A DNA stretch of 64,000 bases from the NCBI RefSeq assembly GCF_018687955.1, contig NZ_CP061309.1:863564-927563 (forward strand). The letters run 5' to 3'. This document shows positions 50,033 through 51,897 of this stretch, piece after piece. Numbering within the stretch: the stretch's first letter is position 1; every line of letters starts with the position of its first letter. A program made the translations under genes and the position numbers. Source of the DNA: Polynucleobacter ibericus (GTDB taxonomy: Bacteria; Pseudomonadota; Gammaproteobacteria; Burkholderiales; Burkholderiaceae). The notes below the pieces were generated by a model. That model searched no databases, had not been told where the DNA came from, and saw only the letters and a program-made list of their open reading frames with translations.

Positions 50033-50560
50033 TTAAAAGCCAGAGCCAGACTTTGGGTTTTGATTGTTATGGCCCAATAGTGCGCCCATCATTGAGTACA
50101 GCGCTGCTCCCGACATGGATACAGCAAAAATACCGCTAAAGGAAATAATGATTGGCAAGATTCTCCAATGCTCAGGGAGCGTGTAATTACCGTAGCCTAC
50201 AGTTGTATACATTTCACCGGCAAAATAAAAGGTTTGCGGATTGGTCGGAAATACTTTTAAAGCCACGCAGATATATGCCCAAAGTACGATTTCACCTAAA
50301 TGGCTGGCAATGACAAGCAGGATTGCGATGAAGTAGGATAGAAAGCTACCTCCGTACACTCGCTTTCTAGTCATCAAGCGATCAATTGCATGAAATGCTC
50401 CTGCGATAGCGAGTACAGCAACTCCATGAATTGCAAGCATTCCGCAAGCAAAAATTAAAACTTCCCAAATCTGGCTATTGCCCATGTCGGCATTAATCTG
50501 ACTGAATAGGGTGCCGAAGCTTGGCAAACTGGCATTGCGATATAAGTCTAGAAGTAACAT
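50033..50560 (-). CDS. Two-pore-type potassium channel family protein
   Basis: 175 residues, inner membrane. An N-terminal helix (about 33-56) is followed by a classical 2TM-pore unit: helix 75-100, pore loop with the selectivity filter TVGYGN (120-125) preceded by FYFAGEMYT, and helix 133-160. There is no RCK or cyclic-nucleotide domain, and the tail is short. The gene next to it encodes a paralogue without the filter. It is predicted to conduct K+. The physiological role is unknown. Confidence 0.82.
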   Translation of the reverse strand: MLLLDLYRNASLPSFGTLFSQINADMGNSQIWEVLIFACGMLAIHGVAVLAIAGAFHAIDRLMTRKRVYGGSFLSYFIAILLVIASHLGEIVLWAYICVALKVFPTNPQTFYFAGEMYTTVGYGNYTLPEHWRILPIIISFSGIFAVSMSGAALYSMMGALLGHNNQNPKSGSGF

Positions 50561-50606
50561 GTCATTAAATAAGAAGTTGGCTCAATTGGAGTCTATTGGC
50601 ATGAAA

Positions 50607-51122
50607 TTAAGAGGTTTGATTATTATTTTTAACAGGGTCGGTAAAGGTGCAGATCAAAAGACTATATAAAGCTGCTCCAGATATAGCCACAGCGAAAAGG
50701 CCCGAAAAAGAGATCAAGATCGGCAACATACGCCATTGCGAGCTAAGAACGTAAATGGGGTCATTGTGATCAAGGTTTGTGTACATCTCACCAGCAAAAT
50801 AAAAGGTGTTTAGGATGCTCGAGTACACCTCAACACTAACCATCGCATAGGTCCAAATGAAAATATCAATGAGGTGGCTAAAAAGGATTAGCAGCACTAC
50901 GGTGAAATAGACTAGGCCATCAATCTTCTTATTTCTAAAGTTGCTATATCTTTTATTAAAGGCATGAAAGCAGCTCATGATGATCAGAATTAAGACGCCA
51001 TGAACAAGCACAACCAACACGGCAATAAAACTCATCAGCCTGATTCCAAAATTAGTCAGGCTGCCTGTAATTTCACTCAGGATGTAATAGACGTTGGGTA
51101 GGGAGTTAAGGAAGTCTGGCAT
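50607..51122 (-). CDS. Channel paralogue with a lost selectivity filter
   Basis: 171 residues from the ATG chosen here; a TTG at 51158 would add 12 residues, and neither has a good ribosome-binding site. It aligns along its length with the channel gene downstream: VHGVLILII..CFHAFN, FSHLIDIFIWTYA, FYFAGEMYT, then WRMLPILISFSGLFAVAISGAALYSL. Between FYFAGEMYT and WR the paralogue has the TVGYGN filter; this protein has NLDHND plus two extra residues. The pore would not select K+ in the usual way, so it may be a regulatory or non-conducting partner. Confidence 0.78.
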   Translation of the reverse strand: MPDFLNSLPNVYYILSEITGSLTNFGIRLMSFIAVLVVLVHGVLILIIMSCFHAFNKRYSNFRNKKIDGLVYFTVVLLILFSHLIDIFIWTYAMVSVEVYSSILNTFYFAGEMYTNLDHNDPIYVLSSQWRMLPILISFSGLFAVAISGAALYSLLICTFTDPVKNNNQTS

Positions 51123-51201
51123 AAGCGAATTTGTATTGATGTTTAATGAGTGACTCAAATATCTTATTTGACATAATAATGATTATACGCAGATAGAGAT
51201 A

Positions 51202-51897
51202 TTAAGGTTTCGAGGTCTCAAGACTCTTTGGGCGGATATATTGTTGCTTATAAAGCCTTTGCCAACGTGAACTTAAGCCCTCTGCAATCCATGGTTTCTC
51301 ATAAATATAAGCAATATCAATAGCAGTAAAACCTTGATCATTCCGTAATTTGAGATCGGCGCCTTTATCCAGCAATAGCTTGATCAGCGTTTCATTGCCG
51401 CCTAAAACGGCCATCATTAACGGCGTTGTATTACTCGGACTCAAAGAATCAATAATTGCTCCGTTAGCAATGAGATATTGAGCAACCTCTAGCTGACCCT
51501 TTGAGCAAGCGTAATGTAATGGCGTCCAGCCTATATGGTTAATTTGCGCCTTATTTTGCACAACCAGCGTCTTAACCAGCCCTAAATCGCCTTCAATTGA
51601 GGCAATCATGAGGGGTGTCTCACCGAACTTATTGGATATATCTACATCAGTTGCCTTATTGGCGAGCAAATAAGAAATAACGGCATCTGACTTATCTCTA
51701 ATAGCTAGATTGAGCATTAGCTCACCCTTAGGATCAAGGATGTTAGGACTAACGCCCTGCGAAATGAGGGTTTTAATGGTTGAAACATCATTAAATTTAG
51801 CTGCTTTTGCGAACTCAGCAATTTGCACATCGGACTGTGCAAGTGCCGCTCCATTTAGAGTTAAAAAAATGGTAAATATATTAAATAACTTTCTCAT
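51202..51897 (-). CDS. Secreted ankyrin-repeat protein
   Basis: 231 residues. A signal peptide (about 1-20, ending ALAQ) is followed by five to six ankyrin repeats (for example GETPLMIASIEGDLGLVKTL, GWTPLHYACSKGQLEVAQYL, NTTPLMMAVLGGNETLIKLL), then a charged tail with Arg and Lys. Predicted periplasmic protein-binding scaffold. Its ATG overlaps the tatD stop (ATGA), so it is translationally coupled to tatD. The two channel genes follow on the same strand. The target is unknown. Confidence 0.87.
   Translation of the reverse strand: MRKLFNIFTIFLTLNGAALAQSDVQIAEFAKAAKFNDVSTIKTLISQGVSPNILDPKGELMLNLAIRDKSDAVISYLLANKATDVDISNKFGETPLMIASIEGDLGLVKTLVVQNKAQINHIGWTPLHYACSKGQLEVAQYLIANGAIIDSLSPSNTTPLMMAVLGGNETLIKLLLDKGADLKLRNDQGFTAIDIAYIYEKPWIAEGLSSRWQRLYKQQYIRPKSLETSKP

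Follow-up and report, generated by a model that had tools for sequence, protein, structure and literature searches.

A filter-rewritten paralogue of a potassium-channel-like protein is conserved under purifying selection in Polynucleobacter

Can a potassium channel whose selectivity filter has been replaced still be a working protein, and if so, of what kind? The question is raised by a pair of adjoining genes in a 64,000-nt stretch of the Polynucleobacter ibericus chromosome, referred to here as the window. A preliminary description of this DNA held that two adjacent minus-strand genes encode related membrane proteins, and this reading stands: both reading frames are open at the positions it gave, and the products align in BLASTP over 163 columns with 40% identity and 61% positives (E 4e-33), a similarity far above chance, in addition to which the motif that distinguishes the upstream protein is repeated in 13 genomes. 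We refer to the filterless protein as NLD and to its intact neighbour as FIL; with three others, they make up the five members of the family in the host genome.

50607..51122, minus strand: NLD, filterless channel-fold paralogue, 171 aa (open reading frame, BLASTP, 13 orthologues)
50760..50777, minus strand: NLD codons N116-L117-D118-H119-N120-D121, replacing a TVGYGD filter (invariant in 13/13)
50033..50560, minus strand: FIL, intact potassium-channel-like paralogue, 175 aa, Ion_trans_2 (Pfam match, model pLDDT 81)
50186..50203, minus strand: FIL filter codons TVGYGN, residues 120-125 (translation of the open reading frame)

The alignment bears out what had been noted of the filter, namely TVGYGN at residues 120-125 of the downstream gene and NLDHND with two extra residues in the upstream one. 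FIL reads FYFAGEMYT-TVGYGN--Y and NLD reads FYFAGEMYT-NLDHNDPIY, such that no filter position of the six is the same and NLDHND is followed by two additional residues, P122 and one more. The motif, within MYTNLDHNDP, is invariant in all 13 orthologues, among which its codons vary synonymously only. The intact paralogues have the second filter glycine in 116 of 117 cases and G(Y/F/L)G in 115 of 117. Consistent differences between NLD and the intact group form one cluster in the filter (N116, L117, D118, N120 and the inserted P122) and another in the inner helix (L142, A146, I147, L155), whereas both groups have GEMY in the pore helix, the glycine of the inner helix and two membrane histidines. 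The histidines (H45 and H87 in FIL), one in TM1 and one in TM2, are invariant in all family members aligned.

FIL belongs to the Pfam family Ion_trans_2 (PF07885, E 9.6e-8, above the curated cut-off). Its structural model (pLDDT 81) comprises an N-terminal membrane helix (TM1, residues 29-65), a second membrane helix (TM2, 71-100), a pore helix (109-120) and an inner helix (TM3, 135-166), and its best Foldseek matches include the pores of KcsA, TREK2 and NaK, at high probability but with E-values above 0.1, none of them significant; a family profile matches KcsA and TRAAK (E about 0.002). NLD itself matched no Pfam family at E up to 1, and a profile search with it against PDB gave no credible match. 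Its AlphaFold2 model (pLDDT 58, pTM 0.38) has the helix order of FIL (low-confidence boundaries: TM1 about residues 25-59, TM2 65-96, pore helix 103-115, TM3 132-160) but is too weak for the shape of the loop, and a fold search with it was uninformative. NLD is, however, homologous over the whole pore domain to FIL, a bona fide Ion_trans_2 member, and shares with FIL and its relatives in the class the pore helix, the inner helix, the histidines corresponding to H45 and H87 and the length. What sets it apart, besides the missing Pfam match, is the six replaced and two added residues: none of the 13 orthologues has a TxG(Y/F)G selectivity filter. With 171 aa, three membrane helices and no C-terminal (cytoplasmic Kir) domain, it falls outside the KirBac/NirBac family; it does combine a K+-channel scaffold and a conserved core with a non-canonical filter, as NirBac and NaKTs do.

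In the wider family across the class, the filter is mostly T(T/S)LG(Y/F)GD or a near variant. Within the genus, a further paralogue with the filter TAMGFMED (SGSTYTAMGFMEDILP; locus L004 1390-1935, G000:C1 about 570.5 kb, also L246-L275) is conserved through most members, mostly at 73-93% identity where found, and a third paralogue (L005) has TVGFVQD. At the FIL position itself, genome G056 (L206 2628-3119) carries TVGTTS and genome G130 (L174 2656-3189) TLAFGS, which appear to be further, independent filter changes. Non-canonical filters are thus a recurrent feature of the family within these genomes, with NLD as the most radical case.

The preliminary description had asked whether the filterless form always lies next to an intact one. 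Twelve of the 13 genomes have a G(Y/F/L)G channel directly after NLD, with 1-64 bases between the genes (1 base in four genomes), and NLD and FIL are probably co-transcribed. The exception is G102 (AP-Melu-500A-A1; L036 / L008), in which FIL is cleanly deleted between an intact NLD and DUF3108, with no close FIL elsewhere in that genome; NLD is thus not strictly dependent on its partner. The partners are of two types, about 43-50% identical to each other: type A (TVGFGS, TVGFGG, TLGLGS) occurs in nine NLD genomes and three genomes without NLD, and type B (TVGYGN, TVGYGD, TVGFGK) in three NLD genomes and most others. NLD and its partner diverge in step, more closely than the flanking genes account for (partial r 0.64, with 0 of 5000 permutations as high), a correlation that may reflect shared inheritance only. 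The idea that NLD compensates for a lost terminal D of the partner's GYGD was rejected, as the same position also varies widely without NLD.

Coordination of K+ by backbone carbonyls depends, in K+ channels, on the glycines of the TVGYG filter. NLD has D and N in their place and would not be expected to form such a filter. The reading that we favour, at about even chances, is that NLD is a subunit without K+ selectivity that probably conducts cations, either by itself or together with FIL. One replacement, in the last common ancestor of the clade, would have turned the filter of a K+ channel into the acidic loop T-N-L-D-H-N-D-P, giving a functional, selected subunit of a presumably tetrameric P-loop channel, in which the helices of the K+-channel sister (membrane, pore and inner) are retained. 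The topology of K+ channels, together with a basic loop joining TM1 to TM2, predicts a periplasmic filter loop; D118, at the position of the first glycine, and D121 would then form rings of side-chain carboxylates, two per subunit, at the outer mouth. The invariance of both carboxylates and of a histidine, on a scaffold that is itself conserved, suggests a mouth lined by side chains that attracts cations. NLD would most probably work as a cation pathway without K+ selectivity, perhaps one that binds divalent ions, and could do so alone or in tetramers shared with the neighbouring G(Y/F/L)G paralogue. The more specific proposal, a natural NLD-FIL tetramer in which the glycine-free acidic NLDHND filter makes a K+ channel divalent-permeable or divalent-gated, is a long shot, and the NLD-only genome G102 argues against a strictly mixed channel.

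NirBac and NaKTs are bacterial precedents for non-selective channels with rewritten filters. The available part of the NirBac report (PMC4607889) describes bacterial K+-channel relatives, few in number of known sequences, in which the P-loop filter is rewritten, to TTGTD (NirBac2.1) or to unrelated loops, with the rest conserved, and which give non-selective Na+ flux in liposomes. As described there, they resemble NLD in the rewritten filter on a conserved K+-channel scaffold but differ in belonging to the Kir family, in their cytoplasmic domain and in their filter sequences, and that part of the report mentions no adjacent intact paralogue. NaKTs of Tsukamurella, a non-selective cation channel, binds Ca2+ in its non-canonical filter (PMC5052707). 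NaKTs and NaK (TVGDG) share with NLD a 2TM-type pore and a non-canonical filter, but LPMGNGPLSP of NaKTs and TVGDGN of NaK keep glycines, whereas NLDHND has none, and NLD is longer by one membrane helix at its N-terminus. With CavMr (TLEGWVD) and the engineered CavAb (PMC7041947), the likeness lies in acidic filter side chains and is an analogy in working only: these proteins belong to the voltage-sensor family, no sequence relation to NLD has been shown, and the NLD loop contains no W. For a filter of the glycine-free acidic type, no counterpart was found, and no paper on Polynucleobacter potassium channels with a relevant title or abstract came to light.

The main rival to this cation-conducting subunit, less probable yet serious, is that NLD is a non-conducting regulatory or silencing subunit of FIL tetramers, its loop plugging the pore or serving as a divalent-binding gate. 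Eukaryotic KvS, CNG beta and AtKC1 are silent or modifier K+-channel subunits that alter a related pore-forming subunit; their assemblies are demonstrated, whereas an NLD-FIL association is suggested here by gene adjacency and correlated divergence only. Besides that correlation and the intact paralogue alongside in 12 of 13 genomes, the tight spacing (1-64 bases) and the conserved membrane segments fit a silencing role. The retention of NLD in G102 after clean loss of the partner does not fit it, nor does the strong difference in partner type between NLD genomes, and it is not obvious why a plug alone should require all six residues to be invariant. We regard as unlikely, though possible, that NLD is no channel at all, its scaffold now serving a sensor or chaperone that binds metal through the DHND loop: Asp, His and Asn are typical metal ligands, NLD has no Pfam channel match and it persists in G102 without a partner, but its pore helix, the glycine of its inner helix and both membrane histidines show the same conservation as in the channels.

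The favoured reading, a non-K+-selective channel subunit, takes NLD to be a functional gene. NLD orthologues were found in 13 of 186 Polynucleobacter genomes, the host included, and the orthologues of the 12 other genomes show 59-73% identity; those further matches in the genus that were read belong to the intact group or to more distant paralogues. A peptide-pattern scan of 84,980 species, one genome each, returned 11 loci, each of them from Polynucleobacter or from a relative in that set; at the DNA level, the NLDHND pattern did not occur in any of the other 24 genera sampled within the family; and an NLD profile run on 300 genomes of the order matched Polynucleobacter and one other genus only, where the filter is SLGNGD. 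As far as searched, then, the change to NLDHND is confined to Polynucleobacter. A viral origin was considered and dropped, a scan of viral contigs having returned no relative. In a quick tree with SH-aLRT support and no bootstrap, NLD forms one clade apart from all intact channels (SH-aLRT 98).

Within the genus, the gene is patchy. About nine in ten genomes with an intact channel are without it, and 7 changes are required to fit its distribution to the tree built from flanking genes. Between sister genomes the gene is either there or cleanly missing, as in G139 (with NLD) and G003 (without), whose FIL proteins are 87% and DUF3108 proteins 94% identical, or G024 (with) and G016 (without), with FIL 93% identical. 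The conservation of the filterless form is therefore of two kinds: where present, its motif is invariant; from most close relatives, it is missing. Such absence had been named beforehand as a sign of a decaying duplicate, and the 13 of 186 do point that way, but the dN/dS result overrides it. In codon models, omega is 0.046 (GY) or 0.053 (MG) for NLD, compared with 0.070-0.075 for the partner channels of those genomes and 0.044-0.047 when computed on one set of intact type B channels. NLD is more conserved than its partner in 51 of 55 genome pairs; in the three type B-B pairs the partner is the more conserved. NLD is under purifying selection, as the preliminary description had proposed from the intact frame. 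A duplicate of an intact channel gene decaying in frame by chance is thus extremely improbable: the patchy occurrence would suit it, but decay is excluded by an omega of about 0.05 together with an invariant motif showing synonymous codon changes only, and neither the single old clade (98% SH-aLRT) nor the stronger conservation relative to the partner agrees with it. The patchiness reflects a functional gene repeatedly gained or lost, whether by loss alone or by recombinational exchange. That NLDHND is an ordinary K+ filter misread through a sequencing or frame error, a reading for which no evidence was found, is excluded by its recurrence in 13 genomes and again among isolate genomes of a second collection.

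Two features upstream of NLD bear on its start and its neighbourhood.

51166..51193, minus strand: predicted dif site TCTGCGTATAATCATTATTATGTCAAAT, between the ankyrin gene and NLD, at the replication terminus (conservation, XerD arm, GC skew)
51202..51897, minus strand: ankyrin-repeat protein with a signal-peptide-like N-terminus, neighbour of NLD

By position and sequence, 51166-51193 is the predicted chromosome dimer resolution site dif. The 28-bp, non-coding element has an 11-6-11 layout with a conserved XerD arm, TTATGTCAAAT, identical to that of the Burkholderia mallei dif (PMC2731167); the stretch of 26 bases that starts at TGCG hardly varies and is conserved in 112/112 loci, within variable surrounding DNA. 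GC skew, sampled round the chromosome from 20-kb stretches, is about +0.06 before the site and about -0.06 after it, and the replication terminus lies within the window, at this change of sign. The spacer element TGCGTATAATCATTATTATGTCAAATAAG, which has no second copy in the genome when up to 3 mismatches are allowed, had also been considered as a -10 box with a Fur/PerR-like operator, a candidate rejected because the element is the dif site.

The start of the upstream gene at TTG 51158, as first described, is unlikely. This codon lies 8 bases past dif, and, because dif is just upstream and most orthologues begin at the equivalent methionine (the exceptions being G024, where a contig end cuts the gene, and G064, with a leucine codon there), ATG 51122 is most likely the start. 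About 100 genomes share the gene order tatD - ankyrin - dif - [NLD] - FIL - DUF3108 (convergent) - HNH. The ankyrin gene is indeed upstream on the same strand, with dif in between, but a functional link to the channels is unsupported: in twelve genomes without a detected channel, the ankyrin gene is present in all twelve (one shortened) and a dif-like site lies beside it in eleven. Since channel-less genomes keep ankyrin next to dif, the adjacency is best explained by position at the terminus. In channel-less Polynucleobacter lineages (L234-L244), other genes fill the slot next to dif, in most of them a short protein of about 140 aa followed by a lactoylglutathione-lyase-like gene.

Rewritten K+-channel filters were previously known from few bacterial sequences; that of NLD has become fixed in numerous species, where purifying selection on the gene is strong and an intact sister lies alongside. 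Natural genomes carrying both forms, the intact one only or the rewritten one only make the Polynucleobacter set suitable for studying how K+ pores are converted, and for asking if mixed channels exist in bacteria, in very small proteins of about 170 aa.
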